This document shows positions 1 through 23,636 of a DNA stretch of 44,906 nt, one piece after another. The DNA is from a virus. A model generated the notes under the pieces. That model had not been told where the DNA came from, did no database searches, and saw only the letters and a program-made list of their open reading frames with translations. A program made the translations under genes and the position numbers. Location of the stretch: the IMG/VR virus record IMGVR_UViG_3300024518_005171, positions 1-44,906 of that record; one strand, given 5' to 3'. Position 1 is the stretch's first letter. Every line of letters begins with the position of its first letter.

Positions 1-812
1 CTGCCAAGAGATGATTGTATAGCTGGGTATTTAGTCTTTTGACGACTCTCTTGTAAGCTAAGAACGTCTCTAATTAAAGCAGGAGGTATATGAGGAATTC
101 CTCCTTCTACAAAAGAAGGCGCGGAAGTCATCTGTCGAACAACTGCAGCAGCTAATACGGGTTCCTTAGAAAGATATGGACTTGCTCTGTGTATAACACC
201 AAACATTTGTCTTGCTCTTGGATCCTCTTTCAGGGTGGGGTCGGCCTTAAGCATTCGTTTGTATTGACGCTCTCGTCCTAATACACGAGTTCCTTCGTAA
301 GCTGAACCTGCTCCATGTGTGATCAATCCTTGCGCACTCCCCACTAAAGCGGCGCCGGCTGCCAGGCTAGCGCCAATCCCGAGTGCTTCCTTTGATTTAA
401 GTCCTTTCAAGGCACTCCAGATACCTTTTAATTTACCGGCGGATGCGATCTTACTAAGGTACAGTTCTCCACTTTTGCCATAGACATCTAAAGAAGTGCT
501 CGACACTTCTTTTTGTTTTCGTAAGAGAACAGATGCGATTTTCTGTGTCTGCTTTATCTCATCTAAATCAAAAGCATATTTTTGGTATTGAGGCATAAGT
601 TTCCTCGGAGTTAATTGCTGCACCTTCTGCTGCGTTATGTTCTTGGCCCTGTCCTTGTGCTTTTTACCTGCATGAGCTACGCCCGCCAGGGTACTTGGCA
701 AGAAGACGCCACCCATAATAGCAGTAACTGGGTGCTTAGCTGCTAACCCCAATGCACCTTTCCCTATGCTACCAACAATACCTGCTGATTTTGGAAAGAC
801 TTCATCTTCCAT
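1..812 (-). CDS. Virion-like protein, C-terminus cut by window edge
   Basis: About 270 residues are visible, reading from an ATG at 812 down to the window edge without a stop, so the C-terminus is missing. The start is fixed by a TGATG junction with the upstream gene, which implies translational coupling. The protein is basic. It has an Ala/Gly-rich hydrophobic stretch near residues 17-45 and another, beginning GIGASLAAGAALVGSAQG, near residues 150-170; these may be membrane segments or packed helices. It contains QKYAF, QKIAS and SKIAS, the K-x-A motif that recurs in other virion-like proteins of this window. I do not recognise the family. Its position with structural genes on the same strand suggests a virion protein, by inference only. 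Confidence 0.75.
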   Translation of the reverse strand, partial: MEDEVFPKSAGIVGSIGKGALGLAAKHPVTAIMGGVFLPSTLAGVAHAGKKHKDRAKNITQQKVQQLTPRKLMPQYQKYAFDLDEIKQTQKIASVLLRKQKEVSSTSLDVYGKSGELYLSKIASAGKLKGIWSALKGLKSKEALGIGASLAAGAALVGSAQGLITHGAGSAYEGTRVLGRERQYKRMLKADPTLKEDPRARQMFGVIHRASPYLSKEPVLAAAVVRQMTSAPSFVEGGIPHIPPALIRDVLSLQESRQKTKYPAIQSSLG

Positions 813-1684
813 CAATTACCCCGAAGCTTATCTCGTAAGGTTCCACTCACACGACGATTCTCATCTTCTAATGCATCTCTAGCTTTGATTGCTCTATGGT
901 ATGCATAAGCAAGTTTCTCATACTTTGCTGCTGCTTTCAAAAGAGGATGATCAGAATCGACAACGACTGCATGAGATAGCTTTTCAAGTTCAACTGATGG
1001 GTTGATTTTTACTCCCTCGGAACGTAGACGATCTGCAGAAGTTTTCATGATCTCCTCAGCAAAGGAAGGAGAATCAACAACATTACAAATAGCCTGAGCT
1101 ATTTGTACAATTCCGTGATCAAATTTCAGATGAGCCTGTTTAACTAGATCATAAAATTCTACGTCCACATCACGCAATGCATATGCGAGCTTATCTGTGC
1201 TATAGCGCATAGTGTCGCTAGCAGCTTTTAGCGTTTCTTTTGTGCTCTCAAGATCTGCGTGTGGGTTTAGTGAAGGGTAGGACCCGCCCTCGGAAGCAAA
1301 GGCTGCTTCTAGATCGGCAGAATCTGGCAACTCGCCTTTGGGCGGGTCCTTTAAATAATCCATATTTGGCGCTTCAATCTCTTCCGCTTTTTCAGAGACC
1401 GACTCAATAACAGAATCTGCGTCGGCAGGAGAAAAGTGTGTATCGCGCTTACCGCCTTCATGAAACATCTCATTCCAAGTAGACTGGTTAGCGGACTCCG
1501 AAATCCTTCGGATTTGATCTTTATTAAGATCCCCCTCCTCACGAACTATCTTTTCTACTGCGCCGGACAAAGAATTCACTTCTCCCCGTGTATACGCACC
1601 AGCTGCTCGTTTACCAAGTAACTTAAGCTGGTCCGATGAACCTCGTCGACGTGGCACATTTGCGAGTTTTTCCAAAAAGTCCAT
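812..1684 (-). CDS. Virion-like protein with EKLA motifs, function unknown
   Basis: This encodes 290 residues starting MDFLEKLANVPRR. The ATG at 1684 is preferred over an upstream in-frame ATG at 1717 because GGAGAG lies at a good distance before it. The protein is charged and predicted mostly helical. The motifs EKLAN, KAAS, DKLAY, KTSA, EKLS and EKLAY are spread along it, and one sits at the extreme N-terminus, as in the genes starting at 7275, 9237 and 21886. No enzymatic domain is visible. It is the first gene of a minus-strand unit and is coupled by TGATG to the next. Upstream, across an 80-base divergent gap, lies a helix-turn-helix gene on the other strand. A scaffold, internal head or tail-associated role is possible, but this is inference. 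Confidence 0.75.
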   Translation of the reverse strand: MDFLEKLANVPRRRGSSDQLKLLGKRAAGAYTRGEVNSLSGAVEKIVREEGDLNKDQIRRISESANQSTWNEMFHEGGKRDTHFSPADADSVIESVSEKAEEIEAPNMDYLKDPPKGELPDSADLEAAFASEGGSYPSLNPHADLESTKETLKAASDTMRYSTDKLAYALRDVDVEFYDLVKQAHLKFDHGIVQIAQAICNVVDSPSFAEEIMKTSADRLRSEGVKINPSVELEKLSHAVVVDSDHPLLKAAAKYEKLAYAYHRAIKARDALEDENRRVSGTLRDKLRGN

Positions 1685-5961: not shown

Positions 5962-6805
5962 TGTCGACCTCCTTAAAATCTATATCTATAGGTCCTTCTT
6001 CTAACTCGTCCAGTGATGGAATAGCTCCTGCTCGTTTTACCATACGAAGCTTAAATGCCTGTGCATCTTTTCGCATGGTAGTACTCTCTACCTCTTGTGA
6101 GATCTCCTCTCTACGTTCGGCAGCGACTGCTGCTTGTCGGAATAATGCGGCCAGGCCGATCGCGCGTTGGCCACTACACTCTCCTCCAGATCGTCGAGTA
6201 GCCTGTACTTGCTGATTTGTGAACGCGATAAAATTATCAATGAGCTCCATCTCGTCAACACGTTGACGTAAACCAAGCATTCCATAAGTAGTAGCGATCT
6301 CCCCCGCCAAGGCCGGAAGAAGTTCTTTACGTTCTTCGTTGGCTTCCATAAAATCCCAGAGGCCTCCCTGGGACATCTCGCCAAGATTCCAGTACAGATA
6401 ATAAAAGGTCTCCAGATTCGGTATTGAGGGAACAAGCTTCTCTGGATGCTTCAACAATAACTCGGTCCTGGCGCGTTCTACTACCCCATGAACAGCAACA
6501 AGCGCCTCAAAGTCCTTCCGCACAGTTCCTGCGTGTAAGAACTTGTCCGCCATCCGAACCTGTGGCGTATTCTTCCACGCATCGTGTAGTCCTCGGTCTC
6601 GGAGCCACCTACGAAACGTAACATTCTTGTAATTGTAGTGCGGTTCCCAGCTATTGGGAGGATCTCCTAGTTCTGCCGAGAGTGCCTGGAGTGAGTCCTC
6701 AGTTGGAACCATCAGGTACCTTGCCGTACACGAAGCGGCAATCTCATAAGAGGTAAACCTCTTTGAGAGCAGATACATAAGGTATCTACGGTGTGGGTAC
6801 TCCAT
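5936..6805 (-). CDS. Helical protein in morphogenesis operon, unknown
   Basis: This encodes 289 residues and is almost entirely helical. The N-terminus (YLMYLLSKRFTSYEIAASC) could hold a helix-turn-helix. A low-complexity Ala/Arg/Glu stretch, FRQAAVAAERREEISQEVE, lies near residues 220-240. The 1-base TAATG junction at 6805 fixes the start. A small terminase subunit is conceivable because of the possible DNA-binding N-terminus and the position upstream of terminase. However, terminase is a separate unit and no family motif is visible, so I leave the function open. Confidence 0.65.
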   Translation of the reverse strand: MEYPHRRYLMYLLSKRFTSYEIAASCTARYLMVPTEDSLQALSAELGDPPNSWEPHYNYKNVTFRRWLRDRGLHDAWKNTPQVRMADKFLHAGTVRKDFEALVAVHGVVERARTELLLKHPEKLVPSIPNLETFYYLYWNLGEMSQGGLWDFMEANEERKELLPALAGEIATTYGMLGLRQRVDEMELIDNFIAFTNQQVQATRRSGGECSGQRAIGLAALFRQAAVAAERREEISQEVESTTMRKDAQAFKLRMVKRAGAIPSLDELEEGPIDIDFKEVDNVRKFPSR

Positions 6806-7275
6806 TAAGTTTTCCTCTTAAACCAATTACGGGGATCAACCGTTTCCTTAGTTTTTTTCGTGGCACCAGACACAGCCCCCTCACCGAATTCTTGGCCCGC
6901 CGCACGACTTACTCCCCTCGCCTCTTCGCGCAACGCACTAGATAATGCCTTACGCCACTTGGGTATATTCTTTATAAGACTTCGCGTACCTATTCCTCCG
7001 GCTGTGGCGGCCCCAGCGCCCACAAGAGCCGAAGCCAATAAAGCATCTCTGTTAAGCTTTTTACGCCTTTTAGCGGCAGCAGCAGGAGGCATACGTCCTG
7101 TATAAGCCAGCGCCTGGTTCAGCTGCTTTTGCTTTTTTTGCGACGACTTAACTCCTGCTAACGTCGCTAAAAGAGACGCGGTTCCCAAAGAGCCCCCCAC
7201 AGCTACGGGTGCACTAAGAGCTATCTTCTCTAGCTCATCATAAAAGTATTCAACGGTTGGAATAGACAGATGCAT
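6805..7275 (-). CDS. Small hydrophobic protein with ELEKIA tag
   Basis: This encodes 156 residues starting MHLSIPTVEYFYDELEKIA. Two hydrophobic Ala/Gly-rich segments, near residues 20-45 (VAVGGSLGTASLLATLAG) and 80-98 (ALLASALVGAGAATAGGIG), could be membrane helices. Lys/Arg-rich linkers surround them, and the C-terminus is basic. The N-terminal FYDELEKIA closely resembles FFLELEKIG in the gene starting at 21886, which has the same hydrophobic-basic architecture, so the two may be paralogous in design. TAATG joins it to the next gene and only six bases separate it from the previous one. The function is unknown; a membrane-interacting virion protein is one possibility. Confidence 0.7.
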   Translation of the reverse strand: MHLSIPTVEYFYDELEKIALSAPVAVGGSLGTASLLATLAGVKSSQKKQKQLNQALAYTGRMPPAAAAKRRKKLNRDALLASALVGAGAATAGGIGTRSLIKNIPKWRKALSSALREEARGVSRAAGQEFGEGAVSGATKKTKETVDPRNWFKRKT

Positions 7276-7281
7276 AGCGAC

Positions 7282-9237
7282 CTACTGTATTTTGGACTGC
7301 AAAGAACGTAGACCGTTAATAACCATATTCACCTGAACCATGGCATTTTTGGTCGCGGCCTCTCTCACATCGTCCATCCCGAGGCGGGAAGCTACTAACA
7401 ATTCAGCCAGGCGGCTCGAGGTCTTTTCAAGATCTGGAAGGTAGTCTACATAAATAGCGGTATTTTCTGGTGTAACGAAGCCTAAAGACAAGACAGCATC
7501 TGCTGTCTCTTTATCCATAATCACAGACGCTTCCTTTACTAAATCAACCCGAAGATTCGGAAGAGATCGCAAATGGGAAGCAACCTTGCTCATTGCAGCA
7601 ACTTTTAGATCGTCCTCGGAAACAACGCGACGTGTATGAGCGACCTTTGCCACTCCTTTTCGCGACGCAGTTTTCATTACACTATGAGCTTGCAGATCAG
7701 TCAGCCCCAAAGTCGCCAAAGAAAACTCGGTGTCTACAGAATCCATAGATCTTCCAAACACACTTGCATTGCGTCCCCTAAAAGAAAATGTCGTTCCATC
7801 TGACAGAACATCGATCATGTCAGCCGACGCAATTTTAATGGACTCCAGTTCCTGCGCTTCCTGAGAATCACGAGGAAGTGATATCTGTTCTCCCTTTAAA
7901 GGAACCCACTGGAAAGAGGAGGGGAGTGCTACTTCGTCATCTCCGAGTCTCGCAATCTTCTGGAGCCCCTTCACGAGAGTAATCCTAACAGGAAGCCCAG
8001 TAGACAAGATAGTTCCATGAATATGGGCAACCTTCTCTTTTCCGTCATCAATAGAAGATTTAACGTCTACTCTTATAGGCTCTGTAGCCATCGCCTTGGG
8101 GCCTGACTGGTAAACAAATACGCCACGACCCCTAGGAGGTACATCCTCGAGGTGAACGTCTTCAACGAAGACGCCCGCCACCTTCTCTTGCAAAGCGTGA
8201 GACGTGCCAGATGAAAAAATCTGTAGGTCTAGAGGTCGCTCGTCAAAACTAATCATTCTAGGGATAACAACCCCTTCAATTTGTTTCCCGCCGGCCCATA
8301 CACGATACACGCCAGTTCTGTTAGCTTCCTGCGCAACCTTTTCCGTTAAGTTCCCATGAACGACGGGATCTACTGTTACGGTCAGAATTCCGTTCTCTTG
8401 TAGCTTCTCAAAGGATTCTTCCGACAGCATCTTTTGTGCAGTGAACCTACTCACAAAAGACTCTTGTGGTCGATAGCACTTATGATTAGCAGTCTTAACC
8501 TGGAACCCCGTTCCTTTAGAGATAAACTGAACGGCTGTAGGCTTTGTGATAGACCTACGGTAGCCTTGCATAGCAGCTGCAGTTTTTTCTTTCACGGTCA
8601 GAATACACTCTGCAGCTTCTTTAAGATGCCCACGAGTTAAAAACGCATGGCGAAGAGCGGCATCATCAAGCAAAGCACCCTTAAATGACTCCACATCTTC
8701 ATCTCTAAATGTAGGGGAGACTGCTTCCAACAGAGTGGGACGCACAGAGGCAGATTTATTAATACTCCCGCTTCTCCAATACTGGTCATCCGCAGGAGGA
8801 CGTAATTGTCCCGCCAAGGGGACCGAACCAAATCCACCTTTAGGTGCAGGTCCTTTAAATGTGTCAGGACGGAAAAGGATTTCTTCTACCTTTTCCTCAT
8901 CCATAGGATACGCAAGCTTCTCATACATATAAGTGTCTAGAGGAGAAAGATCGCGGCTCCGTATAATCAGCGGCACCGATAAGATACGCTTCTGTTCAGC
9001 CGCGGCGCTTTTCTTCATCTGCGCCGGGTAGATAACCATCTTACCTACCGCGTACCCCCTTGCTGAGTCTACGTTCTCGAGGTCAACTTCAACCTCATGC
9101 GATTTCAGCCATGGAAGCTGTTTATATGCATTTTTAATGATCTCGACTGGCCAAATATCTACATCATCCTCAAGGCGAGAACCGGCTGCAGTTTTTTCGA
9201 AGGATATCTTAGCTGCCTGAAAAAGTGGTTGTTCCAT
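7282..9237 (-). CDS. Large virion-like protein dense in K-x-A motifs
   Basis: This encodes 651 residues starting MEQPLFQAAKISFEKTAAG, with a Shine-Dalgarno GGAAG seven bases before the ATG. No known enzymatic motif is visible. Its striking feature is nearly twenty short motifs of the type (E/V/L)K-(T/V/I/L)-A spread along the chain, such as FEKTA, YEKLA, TEKVA, QEKVA, KEKVA, LQKIA, MKTAS and MSKVAS. The regions between them look like ordinary mixed alpha/beta sequence. It lies between baseplate-like and connector-like genes in the morphogenesis operon, so a structural, scaffold or internal virion protein is likely. If the motifs are protease sites, the protein would be cut into many peptides, as phage core proteins are. 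That last point is inference. Confidence 0.75.
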   Translation of the reverse strand: MEQPLFQAAKISFEKTAAGSRLEDDVDIWPVEIIKNAYKQLPWLKSHEVEVDLENVDSARGYAVGKMVIYPAQMKKSAAAEQKRILSVPLIIRSRDLSPLDTYMYEKLAYPMDEEKVEEILFRPDTFKGPAPKGGFGSVPLAGQLRPPADDQYWRSGSINKSASVRPTLLEAVSPTFRDEDVESFKGALLDDAALRHAFLTRGHLKEAAECILTVKEKTAAAMQGYRRSITKPTAVQFISKGTGFQVKTANHKCYRPQESFVSRFTAQKMLSEESFEKLQENGILTVTVDPVVHGNLTEKVAQEANRTGVYRVWAGGKQIEGVVIPRMISFDERPLDLQIFSSGTSHALQEKVAGVFVEDVHLEDVPPRGRGVFVYQSGPKAMATEPIRVDVKSSIDDGKEKVAHIHGTILSTGLPVRITLVKGLQKIARLGDDEVALPSSFQWVPLKGEQISLPRDSQEAQELESIKIASADMIDVLSDGTTFSFRGRNASVFGRSMDSVDTEFSLATLGLTDLQAHSVMKTASRKGVAKVAHTRRVVSEDDLKVAAMSKVASHLRSLPNLRVDLVKEASVIMDKETADAVLSLGFVTPENTAIYVDYLPDLEKTSSRLAELLVASRLGMDDVREAATKNAMVQVNMVINGLRSLQSKIQ

Positions 9238-19174: not shown

Positions 19175-19239
19175 TGATTTGGATACTCGTTGCAATTAGT
19201 GCCCTACACGGGGTTTTAATAGGAATTTTGGACGCCTAA
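19174..19239 (+). CDS. Membrane micro-peptide (21 aa)
   Basis: A 21-residue frame starts in the TAATG at the end of the preceding micro-ORF. Almost the whole peptide is one hydrophobic helix (MIWILVAISALHGVLIGIL) ending in Asp-Ala, so it would be a single membrane-spanning peptide. A potential Shine-Dalgarno, AAGGAG, lies 12 bases upstream within the first ORF. The stop overlaps the end of the minus-strand portal gene by four bases. Possible roles include a holin modulator, antiholin or membrane-protein partner. None of these is shown by the sequence. Confidence 0.5.
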   Translation: MIWILVAISALHGVLIGILDA

Positions 19240-21131
19240 ATTACAGCATCACTTCTTCTAGGAGGTCTTTGCTCGGGCAGGGGTTCCTGCTCGAGCGCCC
19301 TCTTAACAGTTAACTTTTGCCGGATCAGGTCGTGTAGATGAGGATTTTGCGTATGCATCTTACTTAAAACAACGTCCTGTTCCTGTGGAGCCATGCCGCC
19401 CAATTTTTTCGCCCAAGCATCCGCAAGATCAATAACGTTCACATGCGGCACTCCTGCTACATCCTCTACGCCCTGAGGGGGAGGTGCGGGAGGCTGACCG
19501 GGAGGCGGAGGCGCCCCCGCAGATCCCATCTGGTCCTGCTGCATTCGCTCTTGAGCCTCTCTCATTCGCTCCTGAGCCCTTATCTGAAAGCTGGTAGAAA
19601 CCTCTTGAGCTTCTCCTTGAATCGCCGTCTTGTACAGCGTGTCTAGTTTCTGTACCTCTAAATTACGGCGCATCTCCTGCTCGATAATTTTAAGCTCCTG
19701 GAGTGAGTCCTTATCAAATTCAGAGAGAAGGGTTTTATCAGAAACCTTATTCATCTGGTTAAGAGATAGCAGGAGCTGCTTAGTCTGAACATCATCAGCC
19801 ATCTTAAACGACCTCATATGCACAGAGATGGACTCCCAGTTCATAAACCGAGCCACGTTAGGGATTAAAAAGTCGCGCAGAAAATGTTCGTGGAGGTCTC
19901 TATAGGTCATAAACTGATTCTCGAGCATCCGGAGAGAAACACTTGAGCCGCTCCAAGAAAGACCACCAAATACGAACTCCTGAGGAACCCCCATGCCCGC
20001 GATGATGTGCTCTGACCAAGCTCTAATCTCATTTGTAAGCATTAGAGCTCGTCCATCTCCGCCAATACGTTGATGCCCTACAGGTAATGGAAGAATGGGT
20101 TTGTAGTTAGGGTCCCACTTCCACTTCACAATCTCTGCTTCAATACGCCGCTTCCAATCAGATAGATTGACGGTCAAATATGGGTTAGCCGTTTGGTCTA
20201 CTGATGCAGGGTAGATGATATCTAACGGTACCAGGTGTTCAAGCATTACGGCTTCTTGGGCCTTCTTCATAACTTGCAGGTAGAAACTATCTTTAAGTGC
20301 TGGGAGAATCAGGGGGTAACCCCATCCTTCGTCATTTGCACTCAAAGATGGCGTGGGCGCCTTAAAGTGAAACACGTTGTCCTTGTGCAAAACTACGGGC
20401 CGTCGTACTTTCATAGCACGCATAAAGTGATCTGGGAGTTCCTCTAAGTACCTAAGTTTCTTGGAGAGCACCTTCTTTCGAACTTTCGCTGGAACGTTAT
20501 ACGCAAACTCTTTCTGTTGCGTAATCGGGTTAAAATCTATCTCTAGGTCCTGAGGATTCCACCGGATCAGCTTAATGTCACGATAAGATCTATAGTATTC
20601 ATCTTTGACTTTGGCGGCGCCGTTATGCCCGCACTTTGGGCACATAAGAACATACTGAAAGTTCTTGAATTGCCACGCCTTCTTATACTCAAGACGCTTA
20701 ATCCTCTCTTGATAGCCACACTTACACTGCAGATATTTATGGAAAGGGAACATTATAGAAACCACACAATTCCCATATCCGTAGTAATCTAGGCCAGCCT
20801 CTAGCTGAAACCTACCAATACTCAAAACACGAAAAAGAAGGTCTTCCCATCGGTCTTTATTTTTTCTGAATCCCTCGGGAGGCTCTTCCTCAATAATGAT
20901 GTCTGTAATTGGATAAGACGCCATTTTCTTGGTAACAGCACTTACCAGAGGATTCACCAGCATATGATACCGACACCAGCGAAACAAATGTTTCACGGTG
21001 GTAGGCAGATTCATTTGCGCAACATCCCACCAGGCGGAGGGATAACGGAACGTATTGTTTGCCCCGTCCTTATTTGTACGAGGTCCCGAAAATCGACTGC
21101 CGCCGCCGCCAGTGAAGCTACCAAATGCCAT
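19236..21131 (-). CDS. Portal protein with inserted zinc ribbon
   Basis: This encodes 631 residues forming the predicted dodecameric portal through which DNA enters the head and on which terminase docks. The portal-type core includes PVVLHKDNVFHFKAPTPSLS, EGWGYPLILPALKDSFYLQV, ILPLPVGHQRIGGDGRALM and the VPQEFVFGGLSWSGSSVSLR segment (about residues 387-406), typical of large phage portals. A CKCG...CPKCG zinc ribbon (C136, C138, C164, C167) is inserted in the N-terminal third. The end is helical, then Pro-rich (GAPPPPGQPPAPPPQG) and acidic/basic. It is coupled by TAATG to the upstream gene at 21131 and ends the minus-strand unit that starts at 23636. Confidence 0.88.
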   Translation of the reverse strand: MAFGSFTGGGGSRFSGPRTNKDGANNTFRYPSAWWDVAQMNLPTTVKHLFRWCRYHMLVNPLVSAVTKKMASYPITDIIIEEEPPEGFRKNKDRWEDLLFRVLSIGRFQLEAGLDYYGYGNCVVSIMFPFHKYLQCKCGYQERIKRLEYKKAWQFKNFQYVLMCPKCGHNGAAKVKDEYYRSYRDIKLIRWNPQDLEIDFNPITQQKEFAYNVPAKVRKKVLSKKLRYLEELPDHFMRAMKVRRPVVLHKDNVFHFKAPTPSLSANDEGWGYPLILPALKDSFYLQVMKKAQEAVMLEHLVPLDIIYPASVDQTANPYLTVNLSDWKRRIEAEIVKWKWDPNYKPILPLPVGHQRIGGDGRALMLTNEIRAWSEHIIAGMGVPQEFVFGGLSWSGSSVSLRMLENQFMTYRDLHEHFLRDFLIPNVARFMNWESISVHMRSFKMADDVQTKQLLLSLNQMNKVSDKTLLSEFDKDSLQELKIIEQEMRRNLEVQKLDTLYKTAIQGEAQEVSTSFQIRAQERMREAQERMQQDQMGSAGAPPPPGQPPAPPPQGVEDVAGVPHVNVIDLADAWAKKLGGMAPQEQDVVLSKMHTQNPHLHDLIRQKLTVKRALEQEPLPEQRPPRRSDAVI

Positions 21132-22527: not shown

Positions 22528-23636
22528 TAGTTACCTACCGATGCCCCTGCAAATGTGTCTGACGCCAGACGCATGAGTATTTGCTTCTCGGGTCTAGGCA
22601 TCGCCTTAAATTGTGCAACAGGGTTCTTCGCAAACTGGCGGGCAAAGTCTCCCCCAAAATGCATCTGCAAAGTATCCATACCCCTAGTAGCTAAAGCGCC
22701 AAGTTCCTGTTCAGTCACAGAGTCAGACCCTACAGTTAAATCGGGGTCTCGTTCGGACGCCGTCTTCTCGGAAGGAATCCCAAAGGTTGAGTACCAAGGG
22801 TCTGGAACTGACTGATCCCACATTGTATCAAGTCCATACTTTGTGTCAAAAGCAACCAAGGTATCCACAAACTCGGTGGGGCTTTTCTCTGGGATCATCT
22901 TTGCTAACTTGGTAAGGTCGGCATAGGCTGAATCCTCTGCACCTGCCCCCACTAGATGGTGATTCCGTATGTCTAGATAGCCTTGAATAGACGGATTGTA
23001 CTCCATGCTAGCGTGTCGACGTAAATCCGTAGAAAGAGGTAGGCCTACTCTATTGGCCACGCTCGCTACCTTAACCGCATACTCTCTCCGCTCTCGTGGA
23101 GAAAAGCTCCCATGATTTTGTGAGAAGTATAAGTCGGCCGTCTTAACAGCTGCTGCGCTATCCAATGGATAGTATTTAGAGCCATCCGCTCTTTCTAACG
23201 CATAGTCCGCTGCTTCGGGTCGTTTACGCACGACTGGAGAAACCGTAAGATCGTCTACATAAACACAGTTTGATTCTGCATTTGAACCCGTGGCTAGCTT
23301 CTCTAAAAGCTGTGTTGTCTCCAAGCCAAACGCCTGGCATGCAGCCAAGAGGTTAGCAGCAGCGGTTTTTTGCGCCTCTGGAGGAAGATCCTGATGGGTA
23401 TTGTGAAAGTATAGGGCAGACAGAAAGGTATGTCCCGGATCTGCTGTCGCGTACTTCTTAAGCTCCTTTCCGTTGTTAAGAAGGACCAGTGCAAACATGT
23501 TCGCAGGGCTGTCTTGCGAGATAGATGAGCTTGCCTCCTTAACGATAGAGGGGATCTCTTCAAGAGATGGGTAGTACCTTTTCAACAGATTTCCGTTGTC
23601 GTCAAAAAAGTCAAATGTGCCGGTTTCAAAGTTCAT
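22527..23636 (-). CDS. Virion-like protein with repeated K-x-A motifs
   Basis: This encodes 369 residues starting MNFETGTFDFFDDNGN. ATG 23636 is chosen because GGAG lies six bases upstream of it, whereas a longer in-frame start at 23738 would run through the divergent promoter region. The motifs VKEASS, KKYATA, QKTAAA, EKLAT, VKTAD, VKVAS, TKLAK and SEKTAS are spread along the chain. A central segment (KYYPLDSAAAVKTADLYFSQ, then FSPRERREYAVKVASVANR) looks like a compact helical domain. No enzyme motif is seen. It is the first gene of the portal operon, a common place for head or scaffold genes, but it does not resemble a major capsid protein to me. Confidence 0.75.
   Translation of the reverse strand: MNFETGTFDFFDDNGNLLKRYYPSLEEIPSIVKEASSSISQDSPANMFALVLLNNGKELKKYATADPGHTFLSALYFHNTHQDLPPEAQKTAAANLLAACQAFGLETTQLLEKLATGSNAESNCVYVDDLTVSPVVRKRPEAADYALERADGSKYYPLDSAAAVKTADLYFSQNHGSFSPRERREYAVKVASVANRVGLPLSTDLRRHASMEYNPSIQGYLDIRNHHLVGAGAEDSAYADLTKLAKMIPEKSPTEFVDTLVAFDTKYGLDTMWDQSVPDPWYSTFGIPSEKTASERDPDLTVGSDSVTEQELGALATRGMDTLQMHFGGDFARQFAKNPVAQFKAMPRPEKQILMRLASDTFAGASVGN

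Follow-up and report, generated by a model that had tools for sequence, protein, structure and literature searches.

Herpesvirus assemblins (S21 proteases) cleave at sites with Ala at P1, Ser at P1' and an aliphatic residue at P3. In phage T4, the head protease gp21 cleaves after L/I-x-E and also removes the capsid-targeting sequence, ten residues long, found at the N-terminus of internal proteins (PMC9026906). In the phiKZ-like phage SPN3US, protease gp245 cleaves after A-x-E, preferably where P1' is Ser; its own C-terminal propeptide is cut, and propeptides are cut at several places (PMC10052503).

The window analysed here is a 44.9-kb IMG/VR virus fragment, in which head and tail genes lie mainly on the minus strand and the plus strand carries the replication genes (Table 1). 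A 651-residue protein (A651) and other head-associated proteins encoded in it contain many copies of the motif Lys-x-Ala (K-x-A), which is read here as the recognition and cleavage site, with Lys at P3 and Ala at P1, of the phage's own putative prohead serine protease (probability about 0.87). This reading is well supported because a near-identical contig encodes a protease of the gp21 fold immediately past the edge of the window, the motif is placed in the major capsid protein (MCP) and at the borders of the protease, its flanks form a subsite-like logo, and a matrix trained on other proteins recovers sites in held-out families.

The proposed system resembles that of T4, in which gp21 acts on gp23, gp22, gp67 and IPI-III, in the protease fold (by model comparison), in a short P3-P1 code, in short N-terminal targeting-like segments, and in the predicted substrates, these being the MCP N-terminus, the protease borders, and scaffold and internal proteins; it differs in the code itself, which is K-x-A with Ser or Ala at P1' rather than that of gp21. 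With SPN3US gp245 it shares a P3-x-P1 code, a preference for Ser at P1' and, here as predictions, an auto-cleavage site beside the protease domain and multiple propeptide cuts, but P3 is Lys and P1 is Ala here, and the genome is of another type, with a fused beta-beta' RNA polymerase. Assemblin is similar in fold (Z about 5-7) and in P1 and P1'; it differs in its aliphatic P3, where Lys is found here, and it comes from a eukaryotic virus and has no sequence relationship to the present protease. The literature searched contained nothing on virion proteins of phages Arash or D69 or on a K-x-A code, which is not proof of absence elsewhere. Since the geometry is that of known systems and none of the papers searched gave K-x-A as a code, this would be a new code within a known kind of system.

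Lys-x-Ala in the 651-residue protein and its neighbours

A sequence-only reading of the window had noted close to twenty such motifs in A651; 20 were counted, against 4.2 in composition-preserving shuffles, and 0/500 shuffles reached 20, so that Lys and Ala content alone does not explain the excess. The sub-form [E/Q]K[ITVLM]A occurs 7 times (0.11 in shuffles). Codons at the motif are mixed, with Lys as 10 AAA and 10 AAG and Ala in all four of its forms, and in the remaining five frames of the gene 0-3 K-x-A were counted; the excess is therefore a protein-level signal, and a DNA-level cause, such as a repeat or a packaging or recombination signal, was ruled out on the same grounds.

The same reading had claimed that the motif recurs in three further proteins. 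This held for the 369-residue head-associated protein B369 (8 vs 2.2 in shuffles, 0/500) and the 290-residue head-cluster protein C290 (7 vs 2.6, p about 0.02, with the ORF counted as 812-1717); for the partial protein D271 the excess was weak taken alone (6 vs 3.1, p about 0.07). The DNA enzymes had been described as sparse in K-x-A, correctly in the sense that they are not enriched (DNA polymerase, 7 vs 3.8; RecA-like protein, 3 vs 2.2; primase, 0 vs 1.3). For the RNA polymerase fusion, the count was only mildly above chance (21 vs 13.6).

Homologues of A651 were found in 10 related contigs at identities down to ~21%, each with 9-19 K-x-A where 3-5 were expected. Many motif positions differ among them, and 11 of 42 site clusters occur in one sequence only; such turnover would be typical of short linear motifs selected for number rather than place. 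No known family was matched in PHROGs or Pfam, nor was any known internal protein family. Direct tblastn matches to A651 in cultivated phages were not obtained, and the links to these run via the RNA polymerase, the protease and the 290-residue protein. Arash gp218, annotated as a structural protein, is a weak and distant homologue, linked via contig L013 (E 7e-4). The structure model of A651 is modest (pLDDT 68, pTM 0.40), so that assignments of sites to loops are tentative. Searches with the model returned one viral homologue without a function; PDB matches fell mostly on the C-terminal helices, with Z at most 7.4, and were not interpretable.

Candidate cut sites were scored with a position-specific scoring matrix (PSSM) trained on 286 K-x-A sites from other head-protein families of other phages, the 651- and 369-residue families and the window's phage being left out. 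Ten sites were recovered in A651 (0.3 expected), spaced in most cases 50-85 residues apart, and three in B369 (0.14 expected). The homologues of A651 yielded 1-12 sites each (8-12 in each of four close relatives, 1-4 where the relationship is distant), Arash gp218 yielded 3, and members of the B369 family yielded 1-6 in 8/8 contigs tested; replication proteins gave single matches at most. In A651, 7 of the 10 scored sites lie in loops of the model and the other ten K-x-A mostly in helices or strands, a split that was noticed post hoc. It counts against the protease reading that about half of the 20 motifs combine a predicted helix or strand with a poor extended-motif score, and that good sites are fewer in distant homologues; about 4 of the motifs are expected by chance.

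Table 1. Window features and predicted cut sites (arrow, predicted scissile bond; residues numbered within the protein)
Feature	Position	Strand	PSSM score	Remarks
D271, partial head-cluster protein	3..815	minus		6 K-x-A; gene continues beyond the window
D271 site SKIA↓S	444..452	minus	9.9
D271 site QKIA↓S	534..542	minus	9.2
C290, head-cluster protein, 290 aa	812..1684	minus		7 K-x-A; Arash gp220, a structural protein, is a homologue
C290 site VKQA↓H	1133..1141	minus	10.9
C290 site MDFLEKLA↓N	1661..1669	minus	11.0	N-terminal
Terminase	3106-4806			matches large terminase subunit of Salmonella phage Arash and Bacillus phages
156-aa protein	6805..7275	minus		N-terminal targeting-like segment YFYDELEKIA↓LSA, from sequence
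156-aa protein site EKIA↓L	7219..7227	minus	9.8	N-terminal, residue 17
A651, predicted internal head protein and multi-site substrate, 651 aa	7282..9237	minus		20 K-x-A; ATG start
A651 site VKEA↓S	7528..7536	minus	12.5	residues 568-570
A651 site SKVA↓S	7579..7587	minus	11.8	residues 551-553
A651 site IKIA↓S	7828..7836	minus	11.0	residues 468-470; loop
A651 site EKVA↓H	8026..8034	minus	9.1	residues 402-404; loop
A651 site EKVA↓G	8176..8184	minus	10.6	residues 352-354; loop
A651 site EKVA↓Q	8332..8340	minus	9.9	residues 300-302; loop
A651 site EKTA↓A	8578..8586	minus	9.7	residues 218-220
A651 site NKSA↓S	8749..8757	minus	10.2	residues 161-163; low-confidence model loop
A651 site KKSA↓A	9004..9012	minus	9.8	residues 76-78
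A651 site FEKTA↓A	9187..9195	minus	11.8	residues 15-17; near N-terminus; site 1
RNA polymerase, beta-beta' fused, 2058 aa	12836-19012	minus		one ORF
Portal-like protein	19236-21131
B369, head-associated protein, 369 aa	22527..23636	minus		8 K-x-A
B369 site EKTA↓S	22758..22766	minus	11.3	residues 291-293
B369 site QKTA↓A	23361..23369	minus	10.1	residues 90-92
B369 site VKEA↓S	23532..23540	minus	10.1	residues 33-35

Conservation of the individual A651 sites is uneven. At FEKTA↓A, the Glu-Lys pair is conserved in the family and K-x-A is present in 4/4 close relatives; SKVA↓S has a counterpart within 2 columns in 9/10 homologues, and VKEA↓S is kept in 8/10. The nearest homologues of C290, among the matches listed, likewise carry an N-terminal K-x-A.

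A variant compatible with the protease reading is that A651 stays folded and is cut at only one or a few sites (the N-terminal FEKTA↓A and the 551/568 pair), the other motifs being inert. Long conserved blocks run through divergent homologues, only 3 of the window sites are widely common to both homologue clades, good sites drop to 1-4 in distant homologues, and most cleaved head proteins of SPN3US lose N-terminal propeptides only (PMC10052503). We nevertheless consider limited cutting rather unlikely, since ten good sites where 0.3 are expected would need a selective reason, as would the 8-12 of close relatives, whose positions differ in part.

The head protease, the major capsid protein and the motif profile

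A prohead protease was found outside the window. Contig L069 is 97.6-98.4% identical to the window over the overlap and extends past window base 1 into head genes, in the order C290, D271, protease, acidic proteins, decoration-like protein and MCP. This places the protease gene within the head cluster and upstream of that for the MCP, and the order is equivalent in Arash gp220-226. Several of the L069 proteins are acidic and scaffold-like, with 3-6 K-x-A each, and the decoration-like protein has none.

A PHROG "head maturation protease" profile was matched by 14/31 members of the protease family and also by Arash gp222. The AlphaFold model has an ordered domain at about residues 36-245, with pLDDT<50 at residues 24-35 and 246-274. 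Its best structural match was T4 gp21 (5jbl; Z 10.0, 142 aligned residues, 2.9 A), and ranks 2-23 were held by herpesvirus capsid proteases only, at the Z range given above. Foldseek alone returned no significant PDB match, the gp21 match being from a second aligner, and no sequence match to solved structures was found. By model comparison, the protease encoded beyond the window edge is of the T4 gp21/herpes assemblin fold. H131, H132, E157 and S188 are invariant in 74/74 homologues, a pattern consistent with a Ser/His enzyme.

K-x-A marks both edges of this domain. At the N-side border Lys is present in 74/74 homologues and Ala in 71/74, and at the C-side border K-x-A occupies the exact column in 67/74 and lies nearby in 73/74. 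Both border sites fall in the stretches of pLDDT<50, linkers modelled as disordered. Over all homologues, 52 K-x-A occur in 14,104 domain residues vs 582 in 30,247 flanking residues, a per-residue frequency ~5x lower inside the domain.

In the MCP, K-x-A occupies one homologous slot about 25-30 residues from the start in 66 of 67 distinct sequences (median identity 54%, minimum 23%). The Ala column is invariant (66/66), and P2 and P1' vary. Because the segment around the slot is itself generally conserved, conservation of the slot alone could be structural. The sole exception is the L069 copy (L069:11436-12398), in which the N-terminal segment is not in frame and a stop is found 22 codons upstream of the ATG; the loss is probably an assembly or sequencing frameshift. 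The phage G MCP structure (6wkk) was considered as evidence of a cut and was uninformative, the gene (282 aa) and the chain (280 aa) being almost equal in length.

An unbiased scan of all residue-pair patterns with gaps of 1-6 was run on 67 head-cluster proteins vs 556 other proteins of the same phages. K-x-A was the top-ranked pattern in the head-cluster set (506 vs 184 expected, z 23.7) and was near chance in the others (902 vs 814). Enrichment in the head-cluster set was limited to Lys at P3 and Ala at P1, with none for Arg at P3 or for Ser or Gly at P1, and Glu at P1 after a P3 Lys was depleted (69 vs 127). Codes of the T4 type (L-x-E/I-x-E) were not among the 15 most enriched patterns in these proteins, in which K-x-A dominates, and codes of the phiKZ/SPN3US type (A/S-x-E) were missing from the most-enriched list, P1 being Ala. 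The flanking residues give the logo [M/L/I]-E-K-[T/V/I]-A↓[S/A], with Gln also at P2 and information confined mainly to P5-P1'. Ser, followed by Ala, is preferred at P1' (Ser 4.0x), Glu is favoured at P4 (3.6x), and Pro is reduced to about 0.1-0.2x at P4, P2 and P1'. In shape, this profile matches the subsite logo of a protease.

The sequence-only reading had offered a maturation-protease site or a docking motif. The protease half is supported by the fold, the placement, the logo and the matrix, and the proposed code differs from those of the T4 and phiKZ types. Docking would make K-x-A a multivalent motif, left uncut, by which internal head proteins are tethered to one shared partner such as the scaffold, the MCP or the protease, and would accommodate several copies per protein, their positional turnover and their occurrence at protein N-termini; in the capsid-targeting sequences of T4, a targeting segment does adjoin a cut site (PMC9026906). 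It leaves unexplained the motif exactly at both protease-domain borders and its depletion within the domain, the preference for Ser/Ala at P1' with exclusion of Pro, and the single fixed slot in the MCP, and is regarded as highly unlikely. That K-x-A merely reflects amino-acid composition or amphipathic helices rich in Lys and Ala, to which the Ala and Lys in these proteins and the several sites in predicted helices might point, is extremely improbable, being contradicted by the per-protein shuffles, by the choice of Lys over Arg and of Ala over Ser or Gly, by the loop sites that a PSSM trained on other families also finds, and by the other proteins of the same phages, which have no excess.

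Inserted domains were seen in some protease genes. In L048:11321-14272 and L014:18201-20747, inteins (Hint/LAGLIDADG) directly follow an invariant Ser-Met-Gly/Ala, presumably the active-site serine motif. The L128 protease gene has a different insertion, an inorganic-pyrophosphatase-like domain (PF18823).

Predicted processing of the prohead

On the protease reading, cleavage would follow Ala, with Met/Leu/Ile at P5, Glu at P4, Lys at P3, Thr/Val/Ile/Gln at P2, Ala at P1 and Ser/Ala at P1'. The protease would be assembled into the prohead and free itself by cuts before and after its own domain, remove an N-terminal segment of ~25-30 residues from the MCP, and make many cuts in the acidic scaffold-like proteins and in the internal ones, all before DNA is packaged. 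A651 would be an internal prohead protein with a scaffold or cargo role, of the core or ejected type, cut many times, the ~10 good sites giving domain-sized fragments of roughly 50-85 residues. The N-terminal segments ending in FEKTA↓A in A651, MDFLEKLA↓N in the 290-residue protein and YFYDELEKIA↓L in the 156-residue protein resemble T4 capsid-targeting propeptides.

The K-x-A code is most likely common to a large, mostly uncultivated phage group. A more elaborate proposal, unlikely in its entirety, is that A651 is a head-internal polyprotein, i.e. a folded multidomain precursor whose loops are cut every 50-85 residues by a Lys-x-Ala-specific gp21-like protease into small domains that stay in the head or are injected with the DNA, under a code that a large group of uncultivated phages, marked by the fused beta-beta' RNA polymerase, has in common.

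If correct, the K-x-A code would allow "dark" genes for head-internal proteins to be recognised by their sequence in hundreds of uncultivated phages, and the propeptide ends and mature proteins to be predicted likewise. The comparison suggests that the P3/P1 pocket of the gp21-type fold has switched specificity among L-x-E, A-x-E, aliphatic-x-A and now K-x-A. The evolution of capsid-protease specificity is thereby made testable in cultivated relatives, namely Salmonella phage Arash and Vibrio phages D69/D148/D181.

Cultivated relatives and the fused RNA polymerase

The Arash record labels many products "structural protein". Taken together, these are not enriched in K-x-A (151 vs 137), which narrows the signal to head proteins: an excess was seen only in the head cluster (gp220, 10 vs 3.0; gp222, 7 vs 3.2; gp223, 8 vs 2.9; gp225, 7 vs 1.9) and in gp242. 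The Arash MCP, gp226, has KEA↓G at residues 27-29, within VKEA↓GAAM. The structural protein gp242 (L068:29466-30335) is encoded outside the main head cluster and has 8 K-x-A vs 3.5 expected, with 4 high-scoring sites; it is predicted from its motifs to be a head-internal substrate. Relatives of gp242 were not detectable among the contigs examined.

Sequence homologues of the protease domain were found in actinophages (Bxz1-like phages and Rhodococcus phage E3) and in Bacillus phage G. The head proteins of the Bxz1-like mycobacteriophage ErnieJ have a weak excess of K-x-A (30 vs 16.5) and those of E3 none (9 vs 8). The MCPs of both phages (L150:16681-17682 and L151:15091-16092) share a K-L-A at about residue 46, and cultivated actinophages of this kind may therefore use the code as well.

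The fused RNA polymerase ORF of the window is placed between the genes for the portal-like protein and a baseplate-hub-like protein. It has relatives in IMG/VR at 29-67% identity, and Arash has an RNA polymerase annotation on each of two separate genes, gp206 and gp216. The ORF is enlarged to 2.8-3.6 thousand residues in the relatives L020:6443-17215, L015:9986-18289, L011 and L016; in L020 it includes an intein-splicing domain and LAGLIDADG domains of two kinds.
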